From NCBI RefSeq assembly GCF_025231485.1, contig NZ_CP104003.1, forward strand, positions 1,178,001 to 1,242,000: DNA of 64,000 nt, read 5' to 3'. Each line of letters begins with the position of its first letter. Position 1 is the stretch's first letter. The notes under the pieces are model-generated. The model was not told the DNA's origin. It did no database searches and saw only the letters and a list, made by a program, of their open reading frames with translations. The position numbers and the translations under genes are program-made. Source of the stretch: Salinirubellus salinus (GTDB lineage Archaea > Halobacteriota > Halobacteria > Halobacteriales > Haloarculaceae). Below are positions 29,124-45,529 of this stretch, piece after piece.

Positions 29124-30350
29124 TCAGAAGACGCCGAGCTGCTTGGCGATGGTGTTCAGCTGGATCTCGTCGGTCCCCTCCACGATGCGGAGGACGCGGG
29201 CCATCTCGAGGTCGGCCATGTAGGGGTTGTCCTCGCTGAGGCCGTTGCCCCCGTGGACCTGCACGGTGTCGTCGGCGATCTCCCAGAGCGTGTTCGTACA
29301 GAGGTACTTCACGATGGACGACTCCATGATGGCCTGCTCGCCCTGGTCCATCTCCCACGCGAGGCGGAGTCCGGCGGCGTTCGCGGCGTACTGCTTCGCC
29401 TTCCCCTCCGCGATCTTGTGCGAGACGCCCTGGAACTTCCCGATGGGGCGGCCGAACGCCTCGCGGTCGTTGGCGTACTGGGCCGCTCGGTCGAGCAGGA
29501 ACTCGGCGTGGCCCATCGCGCGGGCACCGATCTCCAGCCGGCCCAGCGAGAGGAACTCCATCGCGTCGTAGAACGCGCCGTCCTCGGTGCCGAGCAGGCG
29601 GTCCTCGGGGACCCGCACGTCGTCGAGGTGCACCTCCGCCTGCGAGCCCTCGAAGCCGACGGCGTTGTTCATCGAGCCGATCTCGTACTCGTCGGCCTCG
29701 ACGATGAAACACGAGATGCCGCCGTACCGGCCCATCTCCTCCTGTGGCGAGGTACGCGCGAAGATCTGGAGGAAGTCGGCGTAGGGGGCGTTCGTGATCC
29801 ACTGTTTCGTCCCGTTCAGGACCCACTCGTCGCCGTCCTTCTCGGCCGTCGTGGACATGTTCGGCGAGTCCGACCCGACGCCGGGTTCGGTCTGGCCGAA
29901 GCCGGTCGACTGCTGCCCGCGGACGACGGGGTAGAGGTACTCCTCGCGCTGGTCTCCCTCGGCCTGCGCGAGCAGGGGTTTCGGGCCCTCCGGCCCTGCG
30001 AGCACGTGCTCGGTGAGGCCGGGACCGTTCGTCGCGACGTGCTTGATGGCCCGGTACCACGTCACGTTCGAGACGCCCTCGCCACCGTCCTCCTCGGAGA
30101 GGTTCATCGCGTAGAAGCCGGCCTCGGCCGACCGTCGTCGGACCTCTTGGATGGCCTCGCGGACCTCGGGGACGTAGCGGCCGTCGTCCTCGTGTCGCTT
30201 GCGCTTGTTCGTGTACGTGTCACCGAGGTCGTCCTCGATGGGCTGGACCTCCTGGTCGACGAAGTCGTCTAGACTCTGGAGGATGAGTCGCGTCTCCTCG
30301 TCCGTGTCGAAACTGACGCCGCCCTGCGGGGCGGCCTCCTGTGTCGCCAT
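29124..30350 (-). CDS. Acyl-CoA dehydrogenase
   Basis: FAD enzyme that introduces the 2,3 double bond into acyl-CoA, the first step of beta-oxidation. The 408-residue protein has the flavin-binding GFGQTEPGVGSD, the WVLNGTKQWITNA strand, the C-terminal helical domain (DREAFGRPIGKFQGVSHKIAEG) and the catalytic Glu in RIVEGTDEIQLN. This is the position used by short- and medium-chain members. Start ATG at 30350. It lies in a region with acyl-CoA ligase, CoA transferase, thiolase and SDR genes, which suggests a fatty- or branched-chain acid pathway. Chain-length preference cannot be read. Confidence 0.93.
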   Translation of the reverse strand: MATQEAAPQGGVSFDTDEETRLILQSLDDFVDQEVQPIEDDLGDTYTNKRKRHEDDGRYVPEVREAIQEVRRRSAEAGFYAMNLSEEDGGEGVSNVTWYRAIKHVATNGPGLTEHVLAGPEGPKPLLAQAEGDQREEYLYPVVRGQQSTGFGQTEPGVGSDSPNMSTTAEKDGDEWVLNGTKQWITNAPYADFLQIFARTSPQEEMGRYGGISCFIVEADEYEIGSMNNAVGFEGSQAEVHLDDVRVPEDRLLGTEDGAFYDAMEFLSLGRLEIGARAMGHAEFLLDRAAQYANDREAFGRPIGKFQGVSHKIAEGKAKQYAANAAGLRLAWEMDQGEQAIMESSIVKYLCTNTLWEIADDTVQVHGGNGLSEDNPYMADLEMARVLRIVEGTDEIQLNTIAKQLGVF

Positions 30351-30501
30351 GACAGCACATCTGTCTACGCCTCCTTGAACCCTGTGAGTCACCCACTCAC
30401 GCCCGTTTACGGGAGTTGATTCGTGCCGCATCGGGGCGTGGAGACTCGTCCCGCGCGCCCGCCGGCGGCACCGTCGGCGGACGGCTCTCGGTAGCCGACC
30501 G

Positions 30502-30933
30502 TCAGCGGACGACCGTCACCGGGACGGGCGCACGGCGGACGATGGTCTCCGCGACGCTCCCGAGGAGGACCCGTTCGATACCACTGCGCCCGTGGCTGCC
30601 GATGTAGACGTGGTCGACGTCGTGCTCGTCGATGTAGTCGAGGATACTCCGGGTGTCCTCCCCGACGACGGTGGCGGTGGCGACGTCCCGGTCGTGTTCG
30701 GCCGCGATGTCGTGGGCCTCGTCGAGCAACTTCTCGGCGTGGGCCTCGGCGGCCTCGTACCAGTCCTCCCAGGCGTTCGCCGTCCCGAATCCACCGGGGC
30801 CGAGATCGCTCGAGCGGAAGTCGACGACGTGGAGCACCGTCACCTCGGCGTCCGGGAGGTCGGTCAGCGCCCGCTCCAGTGCGTGTCGAGACCCCTCCGA
30901 GTAGTCCATCGGGACCAGGACGTGCGTGCTCAT
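30502..30933 (-). CDS. Universal stress protein (UspA family)
   Basis: A 143-residue single-domain universal stress protein. ATP-binding residues are visible: HVLVPMDYSEGS at the N-terminus with the loop Asp, and the C-terminal GSHGRSGIERVLLGSVAETIVRRAPVPVTVV, which fits the G-x2-G-x9-G[ST] nucleotide motif. It probably binds ATP and acts as a stress-responsive regulator. The ATG at 30933 gives the full domain. Located between acyl-CoA dehydrogenase and acyl-CoA ligase genes, but with its own flanking spacers (151 and 54 bp). Confidence 0.95.
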   Translation of the reverse strand: MSTHVLVPMDYSEGSRHALERALTDLPDAEVTVLHVVDFRSSDLGPGGFGTANAWEDWYEAAEAHAEKLLDEAHDIAAEHDRDVATATVVGEDTRSILDYIDEHDVDHVYIGSHGRSGIERVLLGSVAETIVRRAPVPVTVVR

Positions 30934-30987: not shown

Positions 30988-32628
30988 TCAGGACTCCTCG
31001 CCCGGACCGAGCGTCAGGTCGGCGTAGGACTCCCGCAGCGAGAGCTTGTCGAACTTCCCCGTCGAGGTCCGAGGGATGGACTCGACGAACTCGTAGCGGT
31101 CGGGGAGCCACCACGAGGGGAACCGTTCGCCGAGGTGCTCCCGCAGGTCGTCGACCGACGCCTCGTGGCCCTCGCGCAGGACCACGCAGGCCATCGGCCG
31201 CTCCTGCCACTTCTCGTGGTCGACGCCGATGACCGTCGCCTCCGCCACCGCCTCGTGGGCCATCAGTTCGTTCTCCAGGTCGACGCTCGATATCCACTCC
31301 CCGCCGGACTTGATGACGTCCTTTGTCCGGTCGACGATGTCGACGTACCCCTGTTCGTCCATCGTGGCGATGTCGCCCGTCCGGAGCCAGCGGCCCCCGG
31401 CCTCGTCGGTGGCGAACGACTCCCGGTTGGCGTCCGGTCGGTGGTGGTACTCGTCGACGACCCACGGACCGCGGACCTGTAGTTCGCCGTAGGCCTCGCC
31501 GTCGCGGTCGACCGGGTCGCCGTCGTCGTCGAGGATGCGCGTCTCGATGCCGGGGACCGGCATCCCCGCTTTCGACTGGTAGGCGTAGCGCGTCTCCGGG
31601 TCGGCGTCCGCCAGTTCCTTCCGGAGCACCGAGAGCGTCCCGAGCGGACTCGTCTCGGTCATCCCCCAGCCCTGCAGGATGGGCGCGTCGAACTCCTCGT
31701 CGTACCGGCGGATGAGCGACTCGGGCGGGGCGCTCCCGCCGACTGTGAGCCGGTCCACGTTCGAGATGTCCGTCCCCGGGTGCTCGTCGAGGTAGTTCGC
31801 CATCTCCAGCCAGATGGTGGGCACCGCGGCGGACATCGTCACCGTCTCGCCGTCGATGAGTTCAGCCACGGACGCTGGGTCGGTGTGGACCCCCGGCAGG
31901 ACCTGTTTCGCGCCCACGAACGTCGCCGCGTACGGGATGCCCCAGCCGTTGGCGTGGAACATCGGCACCACCGGGAGGACGGTGTCGGCCTCGCTCACCG
32001 CGTTCGAGTCCACGTGGCCCGACATCATGCTGTGGAGGTAGACCCCACGGTGCGAGTACGCGACGCCCTTCGGCTTGCCCGTCGTCCCCGAGGTGTAGCA
32101 CATCCCGCACTCGTCGTCCTCGGAGATCTCGGGGAAGGTGTAGTCCGTGGACTGCTCGGCCAGCAGGTCCTCGTAGGCGACGACCGAGTCGAGGGTGGTA
32201 TCCGGCACAGCGTCGGCGAGGACGACGTACTGCTCGACGGTCTCCAGCGCGTCGGCGTTGCGCTCGACCACGTCGAGGAACGCGGGCGCCACGAACAGCA
32301 CCCGGTCCTCGGCGTCGTTCACGATGTACCGGAAGTGCTCGTCGGGGAGCCGCGGGTTGCACATGTGCGTCGAGCGGCCGGTACAGGGTGGTCCGAAGTA
32401 GAGTTCGAGGTGCCGGTAGTCGTTCGGCGCGACGGTCGCGACCCGATCTCCACGGTCGACCCCGAGGTCGTCGAGCGCGCCCGCGAGGCGTCGGACCCGG
32501 TCGTCGAGGTCGGCGTACGTGTAGCGGTGGAGGTCCCCGCCCGGCGTCTTGGTCACCACCTCTCGGTCCGGGAAGAGGTCCACGGCCCGCGCGAGCAGTC
32601 GGTCGAGCGTCAACTGGACGTCCATCAT
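30988..32628 (-). CDS. AMP-dependent acyl-CoA synthetase (long-chain fatty acid CoA ligase type)
   Basis: Activates a fatty or other carboxylic acid through an acyl-adenylate and then the CoA thioester. The protein has 546 residues from ATG 32628. The P-loop is YTSGTTGKPKGVAYSHRG; then come GWGMTETSPLGT, RWLRTGDIATMDEQGYVDIVDR, GGEWISSVDLENEL and the catalytic lysine in RTSTGKFDKLSL. All adenylation motifs are intact. Two starts are possible: 32658 (ten residues longer) and 32628; the AT-rich aaactatc about 30 bp before 32628 supports the latter. It would feed the neighbouring acyl-CoA dehydrogenase. Substrate range unknown. Confidence 0.93.
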   Translation of the reverse strand: MMDVQLTLDRLLARAVDLFPDREVVTKTPGGDLHRYTYADLDDRVRRLAGALDDLGVDRGDRVATVAPNDYRHLELYFGPPCTGRSTHMCNPRLPDEHFRYIVNDAEDRVLFVAPAFLDVVERNADALETVEQYVVLADAVPDTTLDSVVAYEDLLAEQSTDYTFPEISEDDECGMCYTSGTTGKPKGVAYSHRGVYLHSMMSGHVDSNAVSEADTVLPVVPMFHANGWGIPYAATFVGAKQVLPGVHTDPASVAELIDGETVTMSAAVPTIWLEMANYLDEHPGTDISNVDRLTVGGSAPPESLIRRYDEEFDAPILQGWGMTETSPLGTLSVLRKELADADPETRYAYQSKAGMPVPGIETRILDDDGDPVDRDGEAYGELQVRGPWVVDEYHHRPDANRESFATDEAGGRWLRTGDIATMDEQGYVDIVDRTKDVIKSGGEWISSVDLENELMAHEAVAEATVIGVDHEKWQERPMACVVLREGHEASVDDLREHLGERFPSWWLPDRYEFVESIPRTSTGKFDKLSLRESYADLTLGPGEES

Positions 32629-32874
32629 GGCAACCGGACGGTTGTCACGCGCTGCCATGATAGTTTCCCCCGTCCGAGCGACGGCCGGAACCCCATCCGG
32701 GGAGCCTCACACGGACGGCCGTGGGCGTGGGCGGACTCGGCCGTCATGCGGGACGGCGCCCCCGAGATACGGCGGGTGGGCCTACGTTGAGTCGGCGCGC
32801 GGGACGATACCGCGGACCGCGTGACGACCTGCCGCATCGCCCACTTTCAAGTCCCGCCACTGAAACCCCGAGGT

Positions 32875-34047
32875 ATGCAACTGGACGACGTGCGCGTGCT
32901 GGACCTGACCCGACTCCTGCCGGGGCCGTACGCGACCCAACTACTGGCCGACGCGGGTGCGGACGTGGTGAAGGTGGAGGACACCAGCGCGGGCGACTAC
33001 GCCCGACACATGCCGCCCTACACCGACGAGGGCGTGGGTGCCGTGTTCGACGCCGTCAACCGGGGGAAGCGCTCGGTCTGTCTCGACCTCAAGGCCGAAT
33101 CGGCGCGCGAGGCGTTCTACGAACTCGTCGCGGACGCCGACGTGGTCATCGAGCAGTTCCGGCCGGGCGTCGTCGACCGGCTCGGCGTCGACTACGACAC
33201 CCTGCGCGAGCACAACCCCGACCTCGTCTACTGCTCGCTGTCGGGCTACGGGCAGAACGGGCCGCTCGCGGACAAGGCGGGTCACGACCTGAACTACGTC
33301 GGCCTCGCGGGGATGCTGGACCTCTCTCGCGAGGGCGAGGCCGCGAAGCCGTCGCCACTCGGCTACCAGGTGGGCGACATGGCCGGCGGCCTGTTCGCCG
33401 CGTTCGCCGTCGTCTCGGCCCTCCTCTCGCGCGAACTCGGCGGGAGCGGCGGCGAGTACCTCGACTGCTCGCTGACCGACCCCGTCCTCTCGTTCTCGCA
33501 GACGGCCGCTGCGGAGGTGTTCGCCGGCGGCGACCCGCGCCCCGGCGAGACGCCGCTCACGGGTGGCTACCCGTGGTACGACGTCTACGAGTGCGCCGAC
33601 GGCGGCTACGTCACCATCGGGGCGCTCGAACCGCAGTTCTGGCAGGGCTTCTGCGAGGCCGTCGACCGCGAGGACCTCGTCGGCTACCACATGACCGACG
33701 ACGAGGCCGAACTCGCGGCGCTCCGCGAGGAACTGGAGAGCCTGTTCGCCGAGCGGACCCGCGACGAGTGGGTCGATGCGCTCGTCGACGAGGAGGCGGC
33801 GGTCGACGGCGTCTACACCCCGCGAGAGACGTTCTCGCACCCGCAGGTCGAGGCCCGCGGCATCGTCGAGCGTCCCGACGACGCCCCGCCACGCGTCGGG
33901 TTCCCCGCCCGCGGGAGCGACATCGACCACGAGACACCCGCCGACCCCGCTCCCGGTCAGGGCGCCCACACCGACGAGGTGTTCCGCGAGGCGGGCCTGT
34001 CCGACGAGCGCATCGCGGCGCTCCGCGAGGACGAGGTGGCCCGATGA
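32875..34047 (+). CDS. CaiB/BaiF (class III) CoA transferase or 2-methylacyl-CoA racemase
   Basis: Class III CoA transferase fold enzyme, 390 residues. It has MQLDDVRVLDLTRLLPGPYATQLLADAGADVVKVE at the N-terminus, NRGKRSVCLDLK, and KAGHDLNYVGLAG with Asp138, the residue that forms the acyl-anhydride in transferases or acts as base in racemases. The HDxNY form of the motif is common in the alpha-methylacyl-CoA racemase group, so either activity is possible. Start ATG at 32875. Its stop overlaps the start of the downstream LLM oxidoreductase (ATGA at 34044-34047), which indicates tight translational coupling and related substrates. Confidence 0.9.
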   Translation: MQLDDVRVLDLTRLLPGPYATQLLADAGADVVKVEDTSAGDYARHMPPYTDEGVGAVFDAVNRGKRSVCLDLKAESAREAFYELVADADVVIEQFRPGVVDRLGVDYDTLREHNPDLVYCSLSGYGQNGPLADKAGHDLNYVGLAGMLDLSREGEAAKPSPLGYQVGDMAGGLFAAFAVVSALLSRELGGSGGEYLDCSLTDPVLSFSQTAAAEVFAGGDPRPGETPLTGGYPWYDVYECADGGYVTIGALEPQFWQGFCEAVDREDLVGYHMTDDEAELAALREELESLFAERTRDEWVDALVDEEAAVDGVYTPRETFSHPQVEARGIVERPDDAPPRVGFPARGSDIDHETPADPAPGQGAHTDEVFREAGLSDERIAALREDEVAR

Positions 34048-35063
34048 GCGACGAGACGGACGGGGACGGGTTCGGACGTGCGCTCCTCCTCCCGCAGCTC
34101 GGGAGCGACCCGACCGAGACGGCGGTCCGTGCCGAGGAACTGGGCTACGAGTCGGTGTGGCTCGGCGAACTCTGGATGCAGGCCTCGCCCGTCAAACTGA
34201 CCGAGATCGCCGTGGAGACGGAGCGGGTGACGCTCGGCAGCGCCATCCTCAACGTGTTCTCCCGGACGCCGGCCGTGCTGGCGATGACGGCAGCGACGCT
34301 CGACCGCGTCTCCGACGGTCGGTTCGTCCTCGGCGTGGGGACCTCCACGAGGAAGGCCGTCGAGGACCTCCACGGCGTCGCGTGGGACGACCCCAACCCC
34401 GTCAGGCGCGCCCACGAGAGCATCGAGGTGACGAAGGCGTACCTCGGGACGAGCGGCCGCGTGACCTACGACGGCGAGGTGTTCGAAGTGACGGACTTCC
34501 CGGCGCTCGGCGCGGACGTCCCCGTCTACCACGCCGCGCTCGGGGCGGCGAACCGGCGGGTCGTCGGTCGGCTCTGTGACGGCTGGATACCGCACAACGT
34601 CCCCTTCCCCGACCTCCCCGAGTCGTTCGAGTACGTCGCCGAGCACGCCCGCGAGGCCGGCCGGAACCCGGACGACATCGTCGTGGCACCGTACGTCCCG
34701 AGCGCCGTCGCCGACGACCCGGCCGACGCGCGCGACGAGATCAGAGGGCACGTCGCCTACTACGTGGGCAACGGCGAGGGATACGAGCGGGCCGTCGCCC
34801 AGCGGTTCCCCGACGAGGCCGACGAGGTGGCCGCGCGCTGGCGCGGGGACGGCGTCGAGCGTGACCGTGACGCCGCGGCGGCCGCCGTCACCGACGAGAT
34901 GGTCGAGGCGCTCGGGGTCGCCGGCACGCCGGACCAGGCCCGCGAGCAGTTCGCGGCCATCGAGTCGATGGACGTCATCGACCGGCCGATGGTGTCGGTC
35001 CCGCAGAACGCCTCGCCCGCGCTCGCCGAGCGGACGATGGAGGCGCTGGCACCCGGTTCGTAG
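34044..35063 (+). CDS. LLM-class oxidoreductase, probably F420-dependent
   Basis: Luciferase-like TIM barrel, 339 residues. Features of the F420 branch include AEELGYESVWLGE near the N-terminus, TERVTLGSAILNVFSRTPAVLAMTAATLDRVSDGRFVLGVGTST (the substrate/cofactor face) and a C-terminal helix set ending VSVPQNASPALAERTMEAL. Related enzymes oxidise or reduce secondary alcohols, imines or enoyl groups with coenzyme F420, which haloarchaea make. It is coupled by a four-base overlap to the CoA transferase gene. A paralogue lies at 39651-40664. F420 rather than FMN is inferred from lineage and family resemblance. Confidence 0.87.
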   Translation: MSDETDGDGFGRALLLPQLGSDPTETAVRAEELGYESVWLGELWMQASPVKLTEIAVETERVTLGSAILNVFSRTPAVLAMTAATLDRVSDGRFVLGVGTSTRKAVEDLHGVAWDDPNPVRRAHESIEVTKAYLGTSGRVTYDGEVFEVTDFPALGADVPVYHAALGAANRRVVGRLCDGWIPHNVPFPDLPESFEYVAEHAREAGRNPDDIVVAPYVPSAVADDPADARDEIRGHVAYYVGNGEGYERAVAQRFPDEADEVAARWRGDGVERDRDAAAAAVTDEMVEALGVAGTPDQAREQFAAIESMDVIDRPMVSVPQNASPALAERTMEALAPGS

Positions 35064-35065
35064 GG

Positions 35066-35986
35066 TCAGTCGCCCGGCTGTGGCGTTCGGGCCCCGCGCA
35101 CGAGGTCGGCGACCGCGCGGCGCTTCAGCAGGAGGAAGCCGACGAAGACGACGGCGAACCCGACGACCGTGAGCAGGTCGATGGACTCCTGCAGGAGGAA
35201 GACGCCCGCGAGGGTGGCAACCACGGGGACGAGGTACGCGACGAGCGAGGTCTCCAGCGCGCCCCGGACCTCGAGCAGGGTGTAGTAGATGAAGAAGGCG
35301 AGCGCGGTGGCGAAGACGCCGAGGTAGGCGACGGCGGCCCACGCCAGCGGGACGCCGGGGAGCGCGAGCGGTTCACCCACCGCGAGACTCACCCCGTGCA
35401 GGACGACGGCCCCGACGGCCATCGACCACCCCGAGAGCGCCGCCCGGTCGAGCGTCGGGGCCGCCCGCTGGACCAGCACGCCACCGAGTGCGACGCTCAC
35501 CACCTGCGCGAGGATGAGGAGTTTGCCCGCCGTGGCCCCGCCGAGGAGGTTGGTCGGGTCGGGACGGACGACGAGTGTGACGCCGACGAACCCGAGCAGG
35601 ATGCCGACCGCACCGACCGCCGAGATGCGCTCCTCCGGCAGGATGGCGAGCGCCCACAGCGTCGTGGCGATGGGGACGAGACTCTGCATCACCGCAGCGA
35701 CCCCGGAGGCGACGGTCTGCTGGCCGACGAACAGGAGCGCGTTGCCCGCGACGAGGAACACCCCGCCAGCGACGACGGCGACGAGGTCGTCGCGGGCCGA
35801 GGGGCGCCACTCCGTCGTCCGGGTGACGGCGAGCGCGACCAGCAGGACGGCCGCGACGTCGTAGCGGAACGCCGCGAACAGCACCGGCTCGAGCGTCTCG
35901 AGACCGACGCTGATGGCGGGGAACGAGAGGCCCCAGAGCGTCGCGAGGAGGGCGAACAGGCCAACGGCGGCGTACCGCTGTTTCAC
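35066..35986 (-). CDS. EamA/DMT-family transporter
   Basis: Membrane permease of the drug/metabolite transporter superfamily, 306 residues with ten predicted helices arranged as two EamA repeats. The first includes LFALLATLWGLSFPAISVGLETLEPVLFAAFRY and the second starts near residue 150 (LLILAQVVSVALGGVLVQRAAPTLD). The start is a GTG at 35986 (GTG AAA CAG), as no ATG precedes the first helix. The C-terminus is short and basic (LLKRRAVADLVRG). Substrate (amino acid, metabolite or nucleotide sugar) unknown. It is convergent with the LLM gene, two bases from its stop. Confidence 0.9.
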   Translation of the reverse strand: MKQRYAAVGLFALLATLWGLSFPAISVGLETLEPVLFAAFRYDVAAVLLVALAVTRTTEWRPSARDDLVAVVAGGVFLVAGNALLFVGQQTVASGVAAVMQSLVPIATTLWALAILPEERISAVGAVGILLGFVGVTLVVRPDPTNLLGGATAGKLLILAQVVSVALGGVLVQRAAPTLDRAALSGWSMAVGAVVLHGVSLAVGEPLALPGVPLAWAAVAYLGVFATALAFFIYYTLLEVRGALETSLVAYLVPVVATLAGVFLLQESIDLLTVVGFAVVFVGFLLLKRRAVADLVRGARTPQPGD

Positions 35987-36036
35987 GGGTGGAGGTCGGC
36001 CCCTCGTCGTTTATCCCTCCCGGTTCGTCCGTCGAT

Positions 36037-36819
36037 TCAGAAACTGAACAGGTCGATGCCGCCGGTGACGCCGACGACCTGTCCCGTGATGTAGGAGGCC
36101 TGCTCCGAGCAGAGGAACGCGATGAGGTTCGAGACGTCCGCCTCCGTGCCGAGCTTCCGCATCGGCGTCGCCTTGGCGATACGGGCGAAGTGCTCGTCCA
36201 TCTGTTCGAGCTGGTCGATGGGCATGTCCGCGAGTGCCCCGACGACGATGCTCGGTGCGATGACGTTCGAGGTGATGCCGCTCTGGGCGCCTTCCAGCGC
36301 GAGGGTCTTGCCGAAGCCGATGAGCGCGGCCTTCGTCGCCGAGTAGGAGGCCTGTCCGAAGCCACCCTGCCAGCCGGCCATCGAGGACATGTTGACGATG
36401 CGGCCCCACTCGCGCTCTTTCATCCGCGGGAACACCTCCTTCGTGATGTTGTAGGTGCCCGTGAGGTTGATGTCCATGTCCCGGTCCCAGATCTCGTCGT
36501 CGAAGTTCTCGAGGCGGTCGCGCGCGTCGACCATCCCGGCGTTGTTGACGAGGATGTCGATGCCACCCGTCTCCTCCTCGAGGGCGGCGACCGTGTCGCT
36601 CACCTGCTCGCGGTCCGTGAGGTCACACTCGACGGCGTGGGCGGTGCCGGCGTAGTCGCCGTCGTTTATTTCGTCGGCCACGTTCTCGGCGGCCTCGTGA
36701 TTGACGTCGAGGACGACGACCTCCGTGCCCTCCTGTGCCAGTACGCGGCAGTCCTCGCTCCCGATTCGGCCGGCGCCACCGGTGACGATGGCGGTCTTGT
36801 CTGCGAGTCCGAAGTCCAT
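36037..36819 (-). CDS. SDR-family oxidoreductase (FabG/acetoacetyl-CoA reductase-like)
   Basis: Classical short-chain dehydrogenase, 260 residues. NAD(P)-binding TGGAGRIGS occupies residues 13-21, NNAG is at 92-95, and the catalytic triad Ser145/146, Tyr159 and Lys163 (YSATK) is complete. LDVNHEAAENV after strand 2 starts with Asp, which usually favours NAD over NADP. The C-terminal ITGQVVGVTGGIDLFSF is typical of the FabG group. In this context it may oxidise a 3-hydroxyacyl-CoA intermediate of beta-oxidation. Start ATG at 36819. Confidence 0.92.
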   Translation of the reverse strand: MDFGLADKTAIVTGGAGRIGSEDCRVLAQEGTEVVVLDVNHEAAENVADEINDGDYAGTAHAVECDLTDREQVSDTVAALEEETGGIDILVNNAGMVDARDRLENFDDEIWDRDMDINLTGTYNITKEVFPRMKEREWGRIVNMSSMAGWQGGFGQASYSATKAALIGFGKTLALEGAQSGITSNVIAPSIVVGALADMPIDQLEQMDEHFARIAKATPMRKLGTEADVSNLIAFLCSEQASYITGQVVGVTGGIDLFSF

Positions 36820-36910
36820 TACGGGCGACCAATCTGCAGCCTCTGCGATAAGAGTTCGGCCACAGATGCGAGGCGGGACCACACCGCACGGCGCTGCGGT
36901 CGGGTGGTGC

Positions 36911-37609
36911 CTACCGCTCGACGCCGACGATTTCGAGCAACGCCAGCAGGTCGTCTATCTCGTGCGCGGCCGCCGGTCCCCTGGCACCGTCGCCGTAGGC
37001 CACCGGCGTCAGGCCCGCCTCGGCGGCCCCCTCGACGTCGTGGCGGTACCGGTCCCCGATCATCAGCGTGCGGTCCGGGTCGACGCCGTTCGCGCGGGCC
37101 TTCCCGATGGCGTCCTCGAACATCCGCTGGTCGGGCTTGGTGTAGCCGACGTCCTCGCTCGTCGTGACGGCGTCGAACGCGTCCGCGACCCCGAAGGTGG
37201 AGAGCATCGAGTCGGCCTCGCGGGTGTCGATGTCCGAGACGATGCCGAGGTGGACGCCGGCCTCGTCGAGCGCCCGGATGGTCTCGACGGCGTTCGGCTC
37301 CGGTCGCATCGACGCCTCGCTCGTCCGGCGGAAGGTGCGCATCCACGCCTCCTCGTCCGGAGGGTCCTCGAAGAGGGCGTCCGTCGCCTTCCGGTAGCCC
37401 TCGAGGGCCGTGACGTACTCGGTGCCGTCGCGCGACCTGAAGTGGTCGCCGAGCGCCGACTTCCACGTCTCCAGCGCCGCCTCCGGGTCGAGGTCGTACG
37501 CCGCGGCCAGTTCCCCGACGAACGCGGCGTACCCCTCCCGGATGGACTTCAGTTCGACGATGACGCCGCCGATGTCCCAGCAGACGGCGTCGTACTCGTA
37601 CTCGGTCAC
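36911..37609 (-). CDS. HAD-superfamily hydrolase
   Basis: Haloacid dehalogenase-fold phosphatase or dehalogenase-like enzyme, 232 residues. Motif I is CWDIGGVIVEL, with the nucleophile Asp12; the usual second acid Asp is replaced by Gly14, as in a subset of HAD proteins of the DxGG type. Motif II is GIVSDIDT, motif III the Lys in GYTKPDQRMFEDAI, motif IV GDRYRHDVEGAAEAGL. A helical cap is inserted between motifs I and II. It starts at GTG 37609. Substrate unknown; could be phosphoglycolate-like or a broad sugar phosphate phosphatase. Confidence 0.88.
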   Translation of the reverse strand: MTEYEYDAVCWDIGGVIVELKSIREGYAAFVGELAAAYDLDPEAALETWKSALGDHFRSRDGTEYVTALEGYRKATDALFEDPPDEEAWMRTFRRTSEASMRPEPNAVETIRALDEAGVHLGIVSDIDTREADSMLSTFGVADAFDAVTTSEDVGYTKPDQRMFEDAIGKARANGVDPDRTLMIGDRYRHDVEGAAEAGLTPVAYGDGARGPAAAHEIDDLLALLEIVGVER

Positions 37610-37684
37610 AGGTGGAGTGTCGTGGGGCGGGCCAAGAGGGTATCGGCTGCAGCGCCGGACGGGACGACGCGACAGGCGGGCCGC

Positions 37685-38677
37685 TCAGGCCGGGTCGTAG
37701 TAGCGCACGCCGTCCTCGACGGTGACGGTGGCGCGGCCCACCCGTTCGAGGTGGGCGAGCGCGCTGAACGCCTCGGGCAGGATGTAGCGCACCGGCCGCT
37801 CCCCGGCGATGGAGACGGCGACACCGGGGACGGTACGGACGCCGTCGGCGAGCGCGTCGGCGACCCCCTCCAGTCGACGGTCCAGGCTCCCGCGGTCACG
37901 CTCGAGGACCCGCTGGAACTCGTCGTGGACGGCGCCGTGGCCGGGGTAGACGCGGTCGACATCGAGGTCGGCGAGTCGGTCGAGGGCGTCGTAGAAGGCC
38001 TCGAACGCCTCGAACACCCCGTCGTCGAGGCCGTCGTGGATGGCGACGCCGCGGAACGGCTCCATCGCCATGTCGCCGGCGAGGAGCGCGTTCTCGCCGC
38101 CGAGTTCGAGTTCGTAGCAGAGGAGGTCGGCCTGGTGACCGGGCGCGTGGACCGCGCGCAGGTCGTGCTCGCCGAGGGTGAACCGCTCGCCGTCGGTGAC
38201 CCAGTGGTCCACCCGGTCGGCGGGCAGGAGGTGGCTGTCGCGGCGGAGCGACTTGGTGGCCATCTCGACCGCGTCCGCCAGCTGGTCGCCGGTGAGCCCG
38301 GCGCTCCGGGCGTTCTCGCGGACTCGATCGCCGAGCGTGTCGACGTCCCGGCCGAACCGCTCCTCGACGCCGGCAGGCGCGTGCACGGTGGGGTCTGCGG
38401 CCTCGAGGACGGTGGGGACCTGACCGACGTGGTCGACGTGCGGGTGCGTGACGAGGAGGTGTTCGACGTCGGCCGGTTCGAGCCCCACGGCGGCCAGTCC
38501 GTCGCGGAGGGTGCCCTCCCGGTCGTGGTCGCTCTCGTCGTCGGTGGGCATCCCCGCGTCGACGAGCACGGGTTCCGACCCGCCGAGGACGTAGCAGGCG
38601 ACGTGGCCCGGCGGCCAGTCGACCTCGAACTCGATGCGGTGGGCGCCTGCGACGCTCTGCGTCCGACTCTCACTCAT
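37685..38677 (-). CDS. MBL-fold metallohydrolase, paralogue 1
   Basis: Zinc-dependent hydrolase of 330 residues with the metal motif LLVTHPHVDHVGQ (about residue 75), HAPGHQADLL (about 178) and VYPGHGAVHDEF (about 248). The opening AHRIEFEVDWPPGHVACYVLGG and the ending RATVTVEDGVRYYDPA are nearly shared with the gene at 48217-49161. The two are clear paralogues differing mostly in the insert between the first and second His motifs. Both are in the acyl-CoA neighbourhood, so a thioesterase role is plausible. The C-terminal ~60 residues resemble a winged helix (LPEAFSALAHLERVGRA). Start ATG at 38677. Confidence 0.88.
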   Translation of the reverse strand: MSESRTQSVAGAHRIEFEVDWPPGHVACYVLGGSEPVLVDAGMPTDDESDHDREGTLRDGLAAVGLEPADVEHLLVTHPHVDHVGQVPTVLEAADPTVHAPAGVEERFGRDVDTLGDRVRENARSAGLTGDQLADAVEMATKSLRRDSHLLPADRVDHWVTDGERFTLGEHDLRAVHAPGHQADLLCYELELGGENALLAGDMAMEPFRGVAIHDGLDDGVFEAFEAFYDALDRLADLDVDRVYPGHGAVHDEFQRVLERDRGSLDRRLEGVADALADGVRTVPGVAVSIAGERPVRYILPEAFSALAHLERVGRATVTVEDGVRYYDPA

Positions 38678-38781
38678 CCGTTGGAAGGAGCCACGCCCCG
38701 GGTATAACGCTTGGTTTTCGCGCAGAGACCGGTCCCCCGACCCGGTTTTGGCATGAAGGGGGCGGTCCAAGACGGACGTAC

Positions 38782-38790
38782 CTTTATTTA
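38782..38790 (+). promoter_or_regulatory. TATA-like element upstream of the SDR/LLM pair
   Basis: The sequence ctttattta is a strong TATA candidate for rightward transcription. Initiation is expected around 38812-38818, leaving a ~45-nt leader before the SDR gene that contains an in-frame-independent 14-codon ORF (38824-38868). Confidence 0.55.
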
Positions 38791-38861
38791 CAGTAGGTGT
38801 CTATCGCCGGGGCGTAGTTAACGATGGAAACGACAGCCACACACACGCACGGTGAGCGGGC

Positions 38862-39647
38862 ATGGTAGACGTGAGCGACACCTTCTCGGTCGAGGGCAAG
38901 TCGGTCGTCATCACGGGGTCCTCGCAGGGTATCGGCCGGGTGACCGCCGAACAGTTCGCCCAGCAGGGCGCGAACGTCGTGGTCTCCTCGCGATCGCAGG
39001 AGAAGATCGACGAGGTCGTCGCCGGCATCGAGGAGGCCGACGCGCCGGGGCGGGCCATCGCCGTCGAGTGCGACGTGCGGGAACGCGAGAGCGTCGAGAA
39101 CCTCGTCGACACGACCGTCGAGGAGTTCGGCCGCATCGACTCGATGGTGAACAACGCGGGCGCGTCGTTCATGGCGGGCTTCGACGACATCTCGGAGAAC
39201 GGCTGGAAGACCATCGTCGACATCAACCTCCACGGCACCTTCCACGGCGCGCAGGTCGCGGGCCAGCAGATGCAGGAGCAGGGCGACGGCGGGACCATCG
39301 TCAACTTCGCGAGCGTCGCGGGGACGATGGGTTCGCGCTACATGAGCCACTACGGGGCGGCGAAGGCGGCCGTGGTGAACCTCACGGCGTCGCTGTCGGC
39401 GGAGTACGCGAACCAAGACATCCGCGTGAACTGCATCGCGCCCGGGCTGGTCGGGACGCCCGGCGTCGCCTCGCAGATGGGCATCGACCCCTCCGACGTG
39501 GACCGCAGGGACGTGGCGAAGGAGATGGGGCTGCCCGAGGAGATCGCCGACATGGTCCAGTTCCTCGCGAGCGAGGCCTCGTCGTACATCGTCGGAGAGA
39601 CCATCACGGCACAGGGAGTCCCGCCACTCGAGGACTCCGACCTCTGA
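38862..39647 (+). CDS. SDR-family oxidoreductase
   Basis: Classical short-chain dehydrogenase, 261 residues. The cofactor motif TGSSQGIG occupies residues 18-25, NNAG is at 97-100 and the catalytic residues are Ser151, Tyr164 and Lys168. VSSRSQEKIDEV after strand 2, with Arg, favours NADP. The C-terminus (YIVGETITAQGVPPLEDSDL) is standard. The next gene, a second LLM oxidoreductase, starts three bases after the stop, so they form an operon. Likely to act on a hydroxyacyl-CoA or keto substrate in the same pathway as the partner. The message has a leader with a GGTGA Shine-Dalgarno-like site (38851-38855). Confidence 0.92.
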   Translation: MVDVSDTFSVEGKSVVITGSSQGIGRVTAEQFAQQGANVVVSSRSQEKIDEVVAGIEEADAPGRAIAVECDVRERESVENLVDTTVEEFGRIDSMVNNAGASFMAGFDDISENGWKTIVDINLHGTFHGAQVAGQQMQEQGDGGTIVNFASVAGTMGSRYMSHYGAAKAAVVNLTASLSAEYANQDIRVNCIAPGLVGTPGVASQMGIDPSDVDRRDVAKEMGLPEEIADMVQFLASEASSYIVGETITAQGVPPLEDSDL

Positions 39648-39650
39648 CCC

Positions 39651-40664
39651 ATGACCGACCGTGACGTCTTCCTGCCGGTCGCCGCACAGCCGAGCGTGGA
39701 CGCGCTCGTCGAACAGGCCCAGCGAGCCGAAGAACTCGGGTACGACCGGGCGTGGCTCCCCGAGTCCTGGGGCCGGAACGCCGCCGTCACCCTGACGGCC
39801 GTCGCCGAGAACACCGAGGAGATCGGCATCGGCACGTCCATCATGCCGGTCTACTCGCGTTCGCCCGCCCTCGTCGGGATGACGGCCGCCTCGCTGCAGG
39901 AGGTGAGCGACGGCCGGTTCCGCCTCGGCGTCGGTCCCTCCGGACCCATCGTCATCGAGAACTGGCACGGGATGGAGTTCGGGAACCCACTCAAGCGGAC
40001 CCGCGAGACCATCGACATCGTGAAGCAGGTGCTCACCGGCGAGGAGGTGACCTACGACGGCGAGTACTTCGAACTGGACGGGTTCCGTCTGCGGCAGGAG
40101 GCCCCCGACCCCGCACCGCGCATCGACGCGGCCGCGATGGGGCCGAAGGCCGTCGAACTCGCCGGACGGTTCGCCGACGGGTGGCACGCGCTGATGCTCA
40201 CGCGCGACGGGCTGGACGAGCGCTTCGATGACCTGCACCGCGGGGCCGAGATGGCCGGCAAGGACCCCGAGGACGTGCGGACGACGCTCTCACTCACCTG
40301 CTGTGCGCTCGAGGACGGCACGGAGGCGCGCGAACTCGTCCGACAGCACGTGGCGTTCTACATCGGCGGGATGGGCACCTACTACCGCGACAACCTCGCA
40401 CGACAGGGCCACGAGGAGGTGGCACACACCGTCTACGACGAGTGGAACGGTGGTGACCGCGAGGAGGCGCTGGCGGCCATCGACGACGACCTGCTCGACT
40501 CCATCGCGGTCGGAGGGACGCCCGACGAGGCCCGGGACCTGCTCGCCGAGTTCGCCGACCTCGACCACGTCGACAGCCTCTCCATCTCGTTCCCGCGGGG
40601 AGCGAGCGTGGCGCAGATACTGGAGACGATGGAGGCGCTCGCGCCGTCGGCGACCGCCGAGTGA
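39651..40664 (+). CDS. LLM-class F420-dependent oxidoreductase, second paralogue
   Basis: Luciferase-like barrel protein of 337 residues, paralogous to the LLM gene at 34044. It opens MTDRDVFLPVAAQPSVDALVEQAQRAEELGYDRAWLPESWG, then has IGIGTSIMPVYSRSPALVGMTAASLQEVSDGRFRLGVGPSGP, the loop that shapes the substrate pocket in F420-dependent alcohol dehydrogenases and reductases. I believe it belongs to the haloarchaeal group with the TIGR04024-like label. Spacing of three bases from the SDR gene indicates coupled expression. Direction (reduction versus oxidation) and substrate are unknown. Confidence 0.88.
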   Translation: MTDRDVFLPVAAQPSVDALVEQAQRAEELGYDRAWLPESWGRNAAVTLTAVAENTEEIGIGTSIMPVYSRSPALVGMTAASLQEVSDGRFRLGVGPSGPIVIENWHGMEFGNPLKRTRETIDIVKQVLTGEEVTYDGEYFELDGFRLRQEAPDPAPRIDAAAMGPKAVELAGRFADGWHALMLTRDGLDERFDDLHRGAEMAGKDPEDVRTTLSLTCCALEDGTEARELVRQHVAFYIGGMGTYYRDNLARQGHEEVAHTVYDEWNGGDREEALAAIDDDLLDSIAVGGTPDEARDLLAEFADLDHVDSLSISFPRGASVAQILETMEALAPSATAE

Positions 40665-41550: not shown

Positions 41551-43242
41551 ATGAGCGAGCAGGAGTACACCGGCGCGGAGTTGTTCGTCGACGCACTCGA
41601 GGAGTACGGCGTCACCCACGTCTTCGGGAACCCCGGCACGACCGAACTCCCGGTGATGGACGCGCTCTCCCGGAGCGACCTGGAGTACGTCCTCGGGTTG
41701 CAGGAGGACATCGCGGTCGGGGCGGCGGCGGGCTACGCCCAGACCCGCCGCTACCACGCGAACCACGACGAGAGCGTCCAGCCGGTCGGCGTGGTGAACC
41801 TCCACGTCACCCCCGGCCTCGCCCACGGCGTCGGGAACATCTACGGCGCGATGATGTCCGGCGCGCCGCTGGTCGTCACCGCCGGCAACCACGAACTCGA
41901 CTTCCGCCACGAGGAGCCCATCCTGACCGGCGACCTCGAGGCGATGGTCGACCAGTTCTGCAAGTACTCGGCGGAGGTCACGAGTGTCGACGCGCTCCCG
42001 ATGATACTCCGGCGTGCGTTCCGGACCGCGCTCACGCCCCCGACCGGGCCAGTGTTCCTCGCCCTCCCTGTGGACGTGATGCTGGAGGCGACGGGTGCGG
42101 ACCCCGAACCGCTCGGCCCCATCCCGGACGCCGGCGCCGGCGACCCGGACCAGATAGACGCCGCCGCGGACTACCTCGTCGAAGCGGACCAGCCGGTTCT
42201 CGTCCTCGGCGACCAGGTGGCCCGTGCCGACGCCGTCGACGCCGCCGTCGAACTCGCGGAGGCGACGGGGGCCCGGGTGCACGGTGAGATACTCTCCTCG
42301 GAGGTGAACTTCCCCACCGACCACGAGCAGTGGATCTCCTTCATCGGGGTCAGCGAGGGTATCGCGTCGATGCTGATGAACACGGACACGCTGGCGTTCG
42401 TCGGCACGTCCACGAACACCACTCTGCTCCGCCACGAGAACCCCATCGTCCCCGAGGACGCCACGCAGGTCCACGTCTCGAACGACGCGTGGGAGGTGGC
42501 CAAGAACACCCCCGCAGACGCCGCCGTCGTCGGTGACCCCGGCCGGGTGATGTCGGCCATCGCCGAACGGGTCCGCGAGCGGCTCGACGAGGAGGAACGT
42601 GAGTCGCGCCTCCAGTACGTCGAGACGATGAAGGGGTCGCTCCAGTCGACGATGCAACAGATGGGCGAGGACGAGAAACCCGAGGGCGAGACCCGCGCCT
42701 CGAAGGCCGAACTGGTCGACGCGATGACCGAGGTGGCCCCGGAGGCGGTAATCGTCGACGAGGGCGTCACGGCGAAGTTCGCGCTCCAGACCCGGTTCCC
42801 GCTCGCGCCCGAACACTGGGTTGCGAACAAGGGTGGCGGCCTCGGCTACGGCCTCCCCGCGGCCGTCGGCGCGGCCATCGCCGAGGCCGAGACCGACGCA
42901 CCGCGAACGGTCGTCGGCTACGTCGGCGACGGGTCGTACCTCTACTACCCCAACTCGATGTACACCGCCGCGCGCCACGACCTCGACATGGTCGTCGTCG
43001 TCCCGGACAACCGCAACTACCGCATCCTGAAGAACAACACCGTCGACCTGATGGGCGGCACCCACGAGGACTACGAGTTCGTCGGGATGGACTTCGAGCC
43101 GGCGGTGAACATCCCGAAGAACGCCGAGAGCCACGGCGCGCGCGGTCGGCTCGTGGAGACGCCTGACGAGATCGTCCCCGCACTGGAAGAGGCACTGGCG
43201 GAGGACGGCCCGGAGGTGCTGGACGTGTTGATACACGACTAA
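41551..43242 (+). CDS. TPP-dependent 2-oxoacid decarboxylase, benzoylformate decarboxylase-like
   Basis: Thiamine pyrophosphate enzyme of 563 residues. The closest family I recognise is benzoylformate decarboxylase: FGNPGTTELP corresponds to its FGNPGSNELP, the Glu that activates TPP is Glu52 (LGLQEDIAVGAAAGYA), His85 (VNLHVTPG) matches the catalytic His70, and His258 (PTDHEQW) the catalytic His281. The catalytic Ser26 is Thr30 here. The TPP motif is VGDGSYLYYPNSMYTA with DNRNYRILKN downstream. It should decarboxylate an aromatic or branched 2-oxoacid to an aldehyde, but the aldehyde product and any lyase activity are unproven. A strong hairpin follows the stop. Confidence 0.87.
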   Translation: MSEQEYTGAELFVDALEEYGVTHVFGNPGTTELPVMDALSRSDLEYVLGLQEDIAVGAAAGYAQTRRYHANHDESVQPVGVVNLHVTPGLAHGVGNIYGAMMSGAPLVVTAGNHELDFRHEEPILTGDLEAMVDQFCKYSAEVTSVDALPMILRRAFRTALTPPTGPVFLALPVDVMLEATGADPEPLGPIPDAGAGDPDQIDAAADYLVEADQPVLVLGDQVARADAVDAAVELAEATGARVHGEILSSEVNFPTDHEQWISFIGVSEGIASMLMNTDTLAFVGTSTNTTLLRHENPIVPEDATQVHVSNDAWEVAKNTPADAAVVGDPGRVMSAIAERVRERLDEEERESRLQYVETMKGSLQSTMQQMGEDEKPEGETRASKAELVDAMTEVAPEAVIVDEGVTAKFALQTRFPLAPEHWVANKGGGLGYGLPAAVGAAIAEAETDAPRTVVGYVGDGSYLYYPNSMYTAARHDLDMVVVVPDNRNYRILKNNTVDLMGGTHEDYEFVGMDFEPAVNIPKNAESHGARGRLVETPDEIVPALEEALAEDGPEVLDVLIHD

Positions 43243-43255
43243 ACTATTGCCGTCG

Positions 43256-43278
43256 GGTTCGCGCCTCCGGCGCGAACC
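43256..43278. terminator. Perfect 10-bp hairpin after the TPP enzyme
   Basis: The stem ggttcgcgcc / ggcgcgaacc has the three-base loop tcc, 13 bp after the stop codon. It is the strongest hairpin seen in the window, without a T-run, so probably an RNA end or stability element. Confidence 0.5.
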
Positions 43279-43315
43279 ACTCCAGTAAGACGTTAGATCC
43301 ACAAGCGCCTCGCTC

Positions 43316-43346
43316 GGCGGGTGGGAGAGGGGGCCGCGACCGCACC
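43316..43346. repeat. Dispersed intergenic element, copy 2
   Basis: Blocks ggcgggtggg and gccgcgaccgcacc are separated by seven bases, exactly as in the copy at 26144-26174; the spacer bases differ. It lies between the TPP enzyme and the small membrane protein gene. Confidence 0.6.
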
Positions 43347-43381
43347 AGACGGCCGCGCGCCGCCGGGTTCTCGTGCGGGGC

Positions 43382-43657
43382 TCAGTCCCGCGCGTACAGC
43401 GAGTAGGCGATGACCCCGAACCCGGTGGCCGTCAGCGCCGACTCGACGACGAGTGCCGTCTGGGTGTCGAAGGCCGAGACGAGGTCGACCACGCCCGCGA
43501 GCAGACTCCCGAGGGTGACGATGGCGAACCCGAGCGCGAGCAATCCGAGCGGTCGCGCGTGGGTCCGTCGGTACGCACGGAACGCGAAGAACGTCACCAG
43601 CCCACCGAACAGGAGTGTCGTCGTCTTCAGCGCTGTGACGACGAGCGGGTGGACCAT
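43382..43657 (-). CDS. Three-helix membrane protein paired with HTH regulator (DUF7521-like)
   Basis: A 91-residue membrane protein from ATG 43657, with three hydrophobic helices: about residues 5-25 (VVTALKTTTLLFGGLVTFFAF), a cytosolic loop RAYRRTHARP, then 35-57 (LGLLALGFAIVTLGSLLAGVVDL) and 66-88. Its ATG overlaps the stop of the upstream HTH gene by one base (TGATG), so the two are translated as a unit. This pairing of a helix-turn-helix protein with a small membrane protein is typical of haloarchaea (label DUF7521, from memory). It may sense the membrane state and control the HTH partner. An extra nine-residue upstream open frame is rejected. Confidence 0.78.
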   Translation of the reverse strand: MVHPLVVTALKTTTLLFGGLVTFFAFRAYRRTHARPLGLLALGFAIVTLGSLLAGVVDLVSAFDTQTALVVESALTATGFGVIAYSLYARD

Positions 43658-44028
43658 CAGGTCTCCTCCCGGACCTGACTCCACAGGTCCGCCAGTCGCT
43701 CACTCGGCTCCTCCTGTGCCCGTTCGACCTCGGCGCGGAACCGCTCGAACCCGCCGTGGGCGATGCGGATGGCGTCGAAGTCCGTCCGGTACGTGGTGGT
43801 GTGTTTGCCGTCGGTACGGAGCATGGTCTGTTCGTCGACCAGACCGGCCTCGGAGAGGCGGTCGAGTTTGCGGTAGACGGTTGAGTTGGGGATGCCGGTC
43901 AGGTCCGCGAGTTCCTGTGCCGAGCGGTGCTGGTCCGCCGCGAGGAGCAACTGCCGCGACCCCTCGTCGTCGAGCACCGAGAGCACCAGGTCGACGTCTG
44001 CGGTCCCGTCGGAGGCGCTAGATGACAT
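43657..44028 (-). CDS. Winged-helix transcriptional regulator
   Basis: A 123-residue regulator with an N-terminal winged helix: DVDLVLSVLDDEGSRQLLLAADQHRSAQELADLTGIPNSTVYRKLDRLSEAGLVDEQTMLRTDGKHTTTYRT. The recognition helix is around NSTVYRKLDRL and the wing around the HTTTYRT strand pair. The C-terminal 40 residues form a charged helix, probably the dimer or partner interface. It resembles the ArsR/HTH_20 group used in archaea. It is the first gene of a two-gene operon with the three-helix membrane protein. It has no metal-binding Cys. Confidence 0.87.
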   Translation of the reverse strand: MSSSASDGTADVDLVLSVLDDEGSRQLLLAADQHRSAQELADLTGIPNSTVYRKLDRLSEAGLVDEQTMLRTDGKHTTTYRTDFDAIRIAHGGFERFRAEVERAQEEPSERLADLWSQVREET

Positions 44029-44101: not shown

Positions 44102-45529
44102 TCAGTCGTCGTCCGGTGTCAGGCGGACCCGGCCACCCTCCTCGATGGTCTCCGGGAACACCTTCCCGGGGTTGAGGATGTCCTTGGGGTCAAACGCCCG
44201 CTTGACCCGTCGCATCATCTCGACGCCGGCCGCGCCGTGTTCGAGTTCGAGGTACTGGCGCTTGCCCATCCCGATGCCGTGTTCGCCCGTCGCGGTGCCG
44301 CCGAGTTCGATGGCTCGCTTCACGACGGCGTCGTACACCTCCTCGCCGGCCGCGAGCATCGCCTCGTCGTCCGGGTCGACCATCACGGAGTAGTGGACGT
44401 TGCCGTCGCCGGCGTGCCCGAACGTCGGGACGAGGATGTCGTGTTCGGCACCGAGCTCCTTCGCGTAGCGGATTATCTCCGGGTACTTCGAGATGGGGAC
44501 GGTGATGTCGCCGGGGTGGAGCGGCTTCAGGTCCGGGTCGTAGCTCTGGAGCGCGAACGCCAGTTCCGAGCGCGCCCGCCAGAGCTCCCCCATCGACTCC
44601 TCGTCGGCCATCTCGAACCGCTCGACGTCGTGGCTCTCGAAGATGGACTCGCAGAATGCGATCTCCTCCTCGATGCCGTGGTTCGCGTGGAACTCGAGGA
44701 AGATCATCGGGGCGTCCGGGAGGCCGGTGTCGAGGTAGGCGTTCGCCATCTCCGCGGCCACGTCGTCGACGAGTTCGATCTTCGCGACGTCCACCCCGGA
44801 GCGGACCGCGTCGAACACCGCGTTCGTGGCGTCGACAAGCGTCGAGAAGACGGCTCGCCCCCCGCGGATCTGCTCGGGCAGGCCCTCCAGCCGGAGCGTG
44901 GCCCGCGTGACGACGCCGAGGGTCCCCTCGCTCCCCACGAGGAGGTCCTTGAGGTTGTAGCCCGCGCTGGTCTTGACGGCCTTCGACCCGCAGGTCAGCA
45001 CCTCGCCCTCGGCGGTGACGACCTCGAGTTCGAGCACCCAGTCGGCCACCTCGCCGTACTTCACCGTCTTCTGCCCGGAGGCGTCGTTGACGATCATCCC
45101 GCCGATGGTCGAGAGGTTCGCGGAGGAGGGCATCGGCGGGAAGAACATCCCGTGGGAGGCGACCGTCTCGTCTATCACGTTACCCATCACGCCCGGTTCG
45201 ACGTCGATCTGGAAGTCGTCCGGCCGAACCTCGAGCACGTCGTTCATCCGCGTGAGGTCCATCGAGATCCCCGCGAACTTCGGGACGGCGTTACCCTCGA
45301 GCGAGGTGCCGGCGGCGTAGGGCGTGACGGGAACCTCGCGTTCGTTGGCGGCCGCGAGGACCGTCGCCACGTCGTCGGTCGATTCGGGCCAGACGACGGC
45401 GTCGGGCGTGACGCCGGTGCCGGCCTCCTGTGCACCCCAGTCGGCCGCGTGGCTCTCCCGGTCCGCGTCCCCGAACGACACCTGCGCCGCGGCGAGCAGG
45501 TCCTCGAGGAACGAACAGTCGTACGACAT
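44102..45529 (-). CDS. FAD-binding oxidase of the GlcD/D-lactate dehydrogenase family
   Basis: FAD-linked 2-hydroxyacid dehydrogenase (glycolate oxidase D subunit or D-lactate dehydrogenase type), 475 residues. The FAD-binding domain of the p-cresol methylhydroxylase fold shows VTPYAAGTSLEGNAVP, EPGVMGNVIDETV, FFPPMPSSANLSTIGGMIVNDASG and GSEGTLGVVTRATLRL. The C-terminal substrate domain has PTFGHAGDGNVHYSVMVD, GGTATGEHGIGMGKRQYL and PKDILNPGKVFP. All standard motifs are intact; the Fe-S partner GlcF is not adjacent. A TATA-like ggtttatgc on the minus strand (45554-45562) lies 25-33 bp upstream of the ATG. Donor substrate may be D-lactate, glycolate or D-2-hydroxyglutarate. Confidence 0.92.
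   Translation of the reverse strand: MSYDCSFLEDLLAAAQVSFGDADRESHAADWGAQEAGTGVTPDAVVWPESTDDVATVLAAANEREVPVTPYAAGTSLEGNAVPKFAGISMDLTRMNDVLEVRPDDFQIDVEPGVMGNVIDETVASHGMFFPPMPSSANLSTIGGMIVNDASGQKTVKYGEVADWVLELEVVTAEGEVLTCGSKAVKTSAGYNLKDLLVGSEGTLGVVTRATLRLEGLPEQIRGGRAVFSTLVDATNAVFDAVRSGVDVAKIELVDDVAAEMANAYLDTGLPDAPMIFLEFHANHGIEEEIAFCESIFESHDVERFEMADEESMGELWRARSELAFALQSYDPDLKPLHPGDITVPISKYPEIIRYAKELGAEHDILVPTFGHAGDGNVHYSVMVDPDDEAMLAAGEEVYDAVVKRAIELGGTATGEHGIGMGKRQYLELEHGAAGVEMMRRVKRAFDPKDILNPGKVFPETIEEGGRVRLTPDDD

Follow-up and report, generated by a model that had tools for sequence, protein, structure and literature searches.

Gene content of the locus

This work describes a group of genes for acyl-coenzyme A (acyl-CoA) metabolism and for two luciferase-like (LLM) oxidoreductases, hereafter the island, in a 64,000 nt stretch of Salinirubellus salinus (NZ_CP104003.1, positions 1,178,001-1,242,000), hereafter the window. 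Coordinates without a prefix refer to the window. A gene for a CaiB-type protein with the catalytic residues of an alpha-methylacyl-CoA racemase is followed in tandem by the gene for LLM1, a relative of F420-dependent enzymes, and we tentatively propose that both act on acids that bear a methyl group at C2, adjacent to the carboxyl group. The window has a GC content of about 0.69 and encodes acidic proteins, and its closest relatives belong to the class Halobacteria. A scan of the window for RNA features returned no tRNA and no Rfam match. The genes of the island and its surroundings are the following:

29124..30350, minus strand: acyl-CoA dehydrogenase (ACAD; Pfam, open reading frame scanned 29124 to 30431; best PDB match FadE3, 4iv6)
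30502..30933, minus strand: universal stress protein, between ACAD and ligase (PF00582)
30988..32658, minus strand: AMP-forming acyl-CoA ligase (ACS), divergent from CaiB (PF00501/PF13193)
32875..34047, plus strand: CaiB-type protein, probable alpha-methylacyl-CoA racemase (CoA_transf_3, PF02515, E 9e-105)
34044..35063, plus strand: LLM1, probable F420-dependent luciferase-like hydride transferase (PF00296, E 1.6e-64)
35066..35986, minus strand: EamA-family transporter (PF00892)
36037..36819, minus strand: SDR1, short-chain dehydrogenase (PF00106/PF13561)
36911..37609, minus strand: HAD-family hydrolase (PF00702)
37685..38677, minus strand: metallo-beta-lactamase-fold (MBL) hydrolase (PF00753)
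38862..39647, plus strand: SDR2, short-chain dehydrogenase paired with LLM2 (PF13561)
39651..40664, plus strand: LLM2, luciferase-like oxidoreductase of the TIGR04024 family (NP1902A; NCBIfam, 531.9 bits against a cut-off of 345.4)
41551..43242, plus strand: thiamine diphosphate (ThDP) enzyme of the benzoylformate decarboxylase type (Pfam; PDB 4q9d)
44102..45529, minus strand: FAD-linked 2-hydroxyacid dehydrogenase, D-lactate dehydrogenase type (Pfam; PDB 8jdc)

The stop codon of CaiB and the start codon of LLM1 share the four bases ATGA (34044-34047), and SDR2 and LLM2 lie three bases apart. An earlier sequence-only reading of this DNA had described both arrangements and had called the two LLM proteins, which are 39% identical, paralogous; its account of the gene layout is confirmed. 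The acyl-CoA ligase and dehydrogenase that it placed upstream are real, but both lie outside the interval it covered (32875-40664) and on the opposite strand. The ligase and CaiB genes are divergent and 216 bases apart, and the EamA, SDR1, HAD and MBL genes, which are minus-strand and went unmentioned in the sequence-only reading, separate the CaiB-LLM1 pair from the SDR2-LLM2 pair. Because of these four intervening genes and the strand of ligase and ACAD, the island is not one operon, and a single-operon reading is ruled out. A response-regulator gene lies downstream of LLM2, together with the ThDP and D-lactate dehydrogenase-type genes. Two related MBL-fold genes (37685-38677 and 48217-49161) flank the island; both belong to a single cluster that also holds relatives from other loci, 15 loci in all.

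The CaiB-type protein carries a racemase signature

The CaiB-type protein belongs to the class III CoA-transferase family (PF02515). Whole-profile scores do not discriminate between racemases and transferases in this family: a profile built from 35 CaiB relatives ranks the transferase 10uh (270 bits) and SUGCT (245 bits) above the alpha-methylacyl-CoA racemase of M. tuberculosis (MCR), which is matched with 233 bits over a shorter stretch. Overall similarity was therefore dropped as a criterion and the catalytic residues were used instead. In the alignment, H137, D138, D168 and E252 correspond to H126, D127, D156 and E241 of MCR, the catalytic roles of which are described in the available excerpts of PMC10967716 and PMC12246613. 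These four residues make up the full signature of an alpha-methylacyl-CoA racemase. All 39 distinct CaiB relatives have them unchanged, and relatives with 41% and 43% identity to the CaiB-type protein retain all of them.

The protein might instead transfer CoA between acids as a class III CoA-transferase, without racemisation. The order of the profile scores favors this, as does the best NCBIfam model, which is that for succinyl-CoA:mesaconate CoA-transferase. However, the protein falls far short of the curated cut-off of that model (225.4 vs 700), and it is likewise below those of the formyl-CoA (161.1 vs 442) and CaiB (95.9 vs 413) models. Moreover, the transferase-like chains 10uh and 4ed9, both ranked above MCR in the alignment, carry a Tyr at the position of His126 and lack a Glu at position 241, whereas the relatives of the CaiB-type protein have all four residues (His, Asp, Asp, Glu) without exception. 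The island also already has a ligase for making CoA thioesters. We regard the transferase alternative as rather unlikely. Racemase activity, which the sequence-only reading had assigned to this protein, is probable on the strength of the active-site residues, although the whole-protein scores do not set it apart from transferases. No paper on a haloarchaeal alpha-methylacyl-CoA racemase was found in the literature searched; a mesaconate CoA-transferase of Haloarcula is reportedly the subject of one paper, to judge by its title.

Two paralogues at 32-33% identity, one in this genome (L139) and one in locus L061, keep Asp168 and lack the His and Glu. The paralogue of this genome is part of a second cluster (L139, G000:C1:3936000-3955900), in which the CaiB-type gene, without the racemase His and Glu, is divergent from a SnoaL-LLM pair. 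This cluster also comprises an SDR-LLM pair with a 4-base overlap and genes for AtuA, DUF4387, amidohydrolase, aconitase, HpcH/HpaI and PEP-mutase/ICL-type proteins.

Both LLM proteins resemble F420-dependent enzymes

The ten best NCBIfam matches of LLM1 are all F420 models, and so are the ten best of LLM2. LLM2 is placed in TIGR04024 (F420_NP1902A), whereas LLM1 remains under its cut-off (224.6 vs 345.4) in a separate group of its own. Profiles of the relatives give the same picture: that of 31 LLM1 relatives has E-values of 7e-44 for Mer and 1.8e-16 for the best luciferase, that of 32 LLM2 relatives 1e-47 and 2.2e-17, and other F420 enzymes rank in between in both cases. Mer is the top Foldseek match of both AlphaFold models (pLDDT 90.2 and 89.6), and the next solved sequence match is the F420-dependent hydroxymycolic acid dehydrogenase. 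The nearest characterised relatives of LLM1 and LLM2, by sequence and by fold, thus use F420, and cofE is present in this genome (C1:3328792-3329511).

The LLM fold family includes enzymes of both cofactors, and a bacterial luciferase ranks fairly high in the matches, behind the F420 enzymes, so that both proteins could be monooxygenases dependent on flavin mononucleotide (FMN). The top families, profile matches and fold matches are F420 enzymes, however, and the CofE encoded in the genome counts against FMN as well; we consider FMN dependence improbable. Judged from homology, predicted fold and the cofE gene of this genome, the F420 use put forward by the sequence-only reading is likely for both LLM1 and LLM2.

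The similarity to Mer raises a more specific alternative, namely that one of the two serves haloarchaea as their F420-dependent methylene-tetrahydrofolate reductase. In its favor, no solved relative is closer to either protein than Mer, and in several genomes LLM2 has MptE-like and dihydropteroate-synthase-like genes nearby. Yet a far better Mer homologue is encoded directly after cofE (3329574-3330524 on C1). It scores 268.5 bits with the Mer model TIGR03555, under the cut-off of 348.7, against 135 and 122 bits for the two LLM proteins, and it matches jMer in the PDB at E 2.3e-67. It also keeps the equivalents of Glu6 and Asp96, residues with roles described in the excerpt of PMC11094777, whereas LLM1 and LLM2 lack both. 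As the homologue beside cofE has the catalytic residues that the LLM proteins lack, neither LLM is Mer; the alternative is very improbable, and a methylene-tetrahydrofolate reductase role for LLM2, considered for its Mer similarity and the nearby pterin genes, was rejected.

In this genome the best Mer homologue thus follows cofE without a gene in between (L141:8793-10549 = G000:C1:3328792-3330548). This fits the suggestion, made in the available part of PMC8305020, that haloarchaeal mer encodes an F420-dependent methylene-tetrahydrofolate reductase. An MptE-like gene and a pterin-binding (dihydropteroate-synthase-like) gene are located at 50524-52501 of the window, and the same pair is found near LLM2 in many genomes.

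Conservation of the tandem and its neighborhood

Orthologues were counted in an unselected draw of 145 genomes of the class (LLM1 at ≥ 330 bits, CaiB at ≥ 347 bits). Additional loci were fetched for relatives of LLM1 (L083-L138) and CaiB (L063-L082); fractions among these are biased, whereas the draw is unbiased. Tandem counts were obtained with tblastn and neighborhood labels with a script gene caller. The latter is weak in lower-GC loci, several of which have few or no called genes, and the labels there are undercounts.

LLM1 is present in 54 of the 145 genomes, CaiB in 37, both in 29, and LLM2 in 81. The tandem occurs in six genomes of the draw (the window's own, G058, G110, G070, G125 and G010). 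Over all fetched loci it was found in 17 besides that of the window: the five others of the draw, plus twelve named records that belong to Halomarina, Halorarius and Haloglomus (Natronomonadaceae), to Halorientalis (Haloarculaceae) or to unclassified assemblies. Because of this recurrence, the arrangement is more than chance. Of the 18 tandem loci, that of the window included, 7 have an overlap of the two genes by 1 or 4 bases: a possible overlap of 4 bases, as in the window, is seen in L089, L090 and L099, while L088, L094 and L097 may have one of a single base. The sequence-only reading had named a lack of conservation beyond close relatives as the result that would speak against it; the CaiB-LLM1 pair extends over several haloarchaeal families.

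In a tree of 74 LLM1 rows the tandem label is scattered, with at least 8 changes, 6 of which are forced by well-supported branches, and it appears on both sides of the midpoint root. CaiB-LLM1 is either an old pair that was repeatedly broken or a pair that was repeatedly formed. The CaiB tree came from a quick search. Plasmid copies of LLM1 close to that of the window occur in L086, L091, L084 and L110 (Haladaptatus, Natribaculum, Natrinema), with no adjoining CaiB.

Neighborhoods were scored within 10 kb of CaiB in 39 loci, including a short copy of the window. ACAD is found near CaiB in 22 loci, LLM1 in 18, SDR1 in 17, and ligase and LLM2 in 10 each; MBL, HAD and EamA genes are found in 14, 12 and 11, respectively. 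The ThDP enzyme is near CaiB in only 4 loci and the FAD-linked 2-hydroxyacid dehydrogenase in only 3. In L064, L071 and L080, CaiB, ligase, ACAD and SDR1 occur together while LLM1 is absent from the cluster. Of the 40 LLM2 loci, 15 have SDR2 immediately before LLM2 and a further 4 have it no more than 2.5 kb upstream; in the other 21 there is no SDR2 within that distance. A ThDP decarboxylase and an FAD-linked 2-hydroxyacid dehydrogenase accompany the island in some genomes (window 41551-45529; L090:10997-12178), and in other loci the accompanying 2-hydroxyacid dehydrogenase is of the FMN-dependent type. In L102, L106, L107, L108, L111 and other Natrialbaceae, LLM1 stands stably beside nadB/nadA/nadC and an amidohydrolase gene, often with an HMG-CoA reductase gene.

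As LLM1 lies elsewhere in Natrialbaceae and CaiB is able to stay with ligase, ACAD and SDR1, the racemase-ligase-dehydrogenase-SDR1 core is firmly a conserved unit, whereas the F420 coupling through LLM1 is real but optional, being present in part of the class. One could go further and assume that a single substrate is degraded by the core, with LLM1 and SDR2-LLM2 performing general or unrelated F420 chemistry as neighbors by descent. The Natrialbaceae loci and the three clusters without LLM1 are in line with this, as are the wider distribution of LLM2 (81/145 genomes, against 37/145 for CaiB), the frequent pterin-synthesis genes near LLM2 and the LLM2 loci that have no SDR2 within 2.5 kb upstream. 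On the other hand, the CaiB-LLM1 tandem sits on widely separated branches of the LLM1 tree, and drift alone should break pairs that overlap by 1 or 4 bases. We consider this alternative unlikely, though it deserves more weight than the transferase reading of CaiB.

A proposed pathway for 2-methyl-branched acids

We tentatively interpret the locus as a haloarchaeal catabolic gene island for 2-methyl-branched acids, in which LLM1 acts as an F420 hydride transferase on the same substrate. The sequences themselves show gene order and its recurrence, the four racemase residues, the kinship of the LLM proteins with F420 enzymes and the presence of cofE; activities, cofactor, substrate and direction of hydride transfer are inferred. 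The ligase would form the CoA thioester of the 2-methyl-branched acid and the CaiB-type protein would epimerise the 2-methyl center, making both stereoisomers usable. The acyl-CoA dehydrogenase would then introduce the 2,3-double bond, and an SDR, probably SDR1, would oxidise the 3-hydroxy intermediate. LLM1 with F420 would most likely act, by reduction or oxidation, on a carbonyl, alcohol or enoyl intermediate derived from this substrate. SDR2-LLM2 may be a second, related redox pair; it need not share the compound, and it is less firmly a part of the module. The ligase scores above the cut-off of the long-chain fatty acid CoA ligase model PRK06187 (582.9 vs 476), which fits a lipid-like substrate.

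Several observations weigh against this interpretation. Among genomes that carry both CaiB and LLM1, tandems are few (6 of 29), and the co-occurrence statistics of the draw ignore kinship. The nine LLM1 rows nearest to that of the window in the tree have no CaiB beside them and several are on plasmids, while Natrialbaceae LLM1 is often adjacent to the quinolinate synthesis genes nadA, nadB and nadC and to amidohydrolase genes. In the window itself, ligase and ACAD are on the strand opposite to CaiB, the profile scores of the CaiB family put transferases first, and the catalytic Glu at strand 1 of Mer is absent from both LLM proteins. As this Glu is missing, LLM chemistry cannot be taken from the solved relative. 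The co-occurrence check proposed by the sequence-only reading shows that the pair spans several families but that tandems are a minority among genomes with both genes. The interpretation given in that reading is partly supported, and its single F420-linked route for branched acyl-CoA stays tentative, given LLM1 elsewhere in Natrialbaceae and the 21 of 40 LLM2 loci without SDR2 in the 2.5 kb upstream.

The isoprenoid chains of archaeal lipids carry methyl branches at regular spacing, which makes them an attractive source of the substrate. In this extended form, a haloarchaeal F420-coupled pathway would degrade 2-methyl-branched, possibly archaeal-lipid-derived isoprenoid acids, with LLM1 (and SDR2-LLM2) moving hydride between intermediates and F420. 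The 2-hydroxyacid dehydrogenase and ThDP decarboxylase would take one carbon off a 3-methyl acid, after which the ligase would activate the 2-methyl product and the racemase would render it usable. The idea is weakened by the rarity of the ThDP and 2-hydroxyacid dehydrogenase genes near CaiB (4 and 3 of 39 loci) and by the result of a search of this genome for a PhyH-type hydroxylase, which gave no PF05721 match; we regard it as improbable. Classical phytanate alpha-oxidation was rejected, as no PhyH family gene was found in this genome.

Each island protein belongs to a known family, and the pathway is a testable prediction. In the available part of PMC8305020, the importance of F420 to haloarchaeal biology is called enigmatic and, to the knowledge of its authors, a single F420-dependent reaction has been reported in halophilic archaea. 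Since F420 has this enigmatic role and a recurrent coupling of a racemase-signature gene to an F420-type LLM gene was not found in the literature searched, the coupling is worth a bench test. The tandem offers a concrete substrate class, 2-methyl-branched acyl-CoA. If true, the F420-coupled pathway would give F420 a first assigned catabolic role in aerobic haloarchaea, and if the substrate consists of archaeal-lipid isoprenoid acids, it would bear on the recycling of archaeal lipids.

Comparison with known systems

The CaiB-type protein shares the class III CoA-transferase family and the four catalytic residues with MCR of M. tuberculosis (PDB 1x74) and human AMACR. It differs from MCR in length (390 residues, against 360 for the MCR chain), and its match score with MCR is no higher than with transferases. 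For the LLM proteins, the TIGR04024 family of NP_1902A includes LLM2, whereas LLM1 represents a distinct group below the cut-off; NP_1902A is counted among open annotation issues in the excerpt of PMC8305020. Mer (PDB 8qpl, 1z69) is the closest solved sequence and fold for both, yet it is only about 25% identical to them, and its catalytic Glu6 and pterin-contacting Asp96 have no counterpart in either. The mycobacterial F420-dependent hydroxymycolic acid dehydrogenase and phthiodiolone ketoreductase differ in having cell-wall lipids as substrates and are only about 19-25% identical to the LLM proteins in fold searches; they are nonetheless LLM-type enzymes that act on lipid alcohols or ketones, as described in the available part of PMC8498797.

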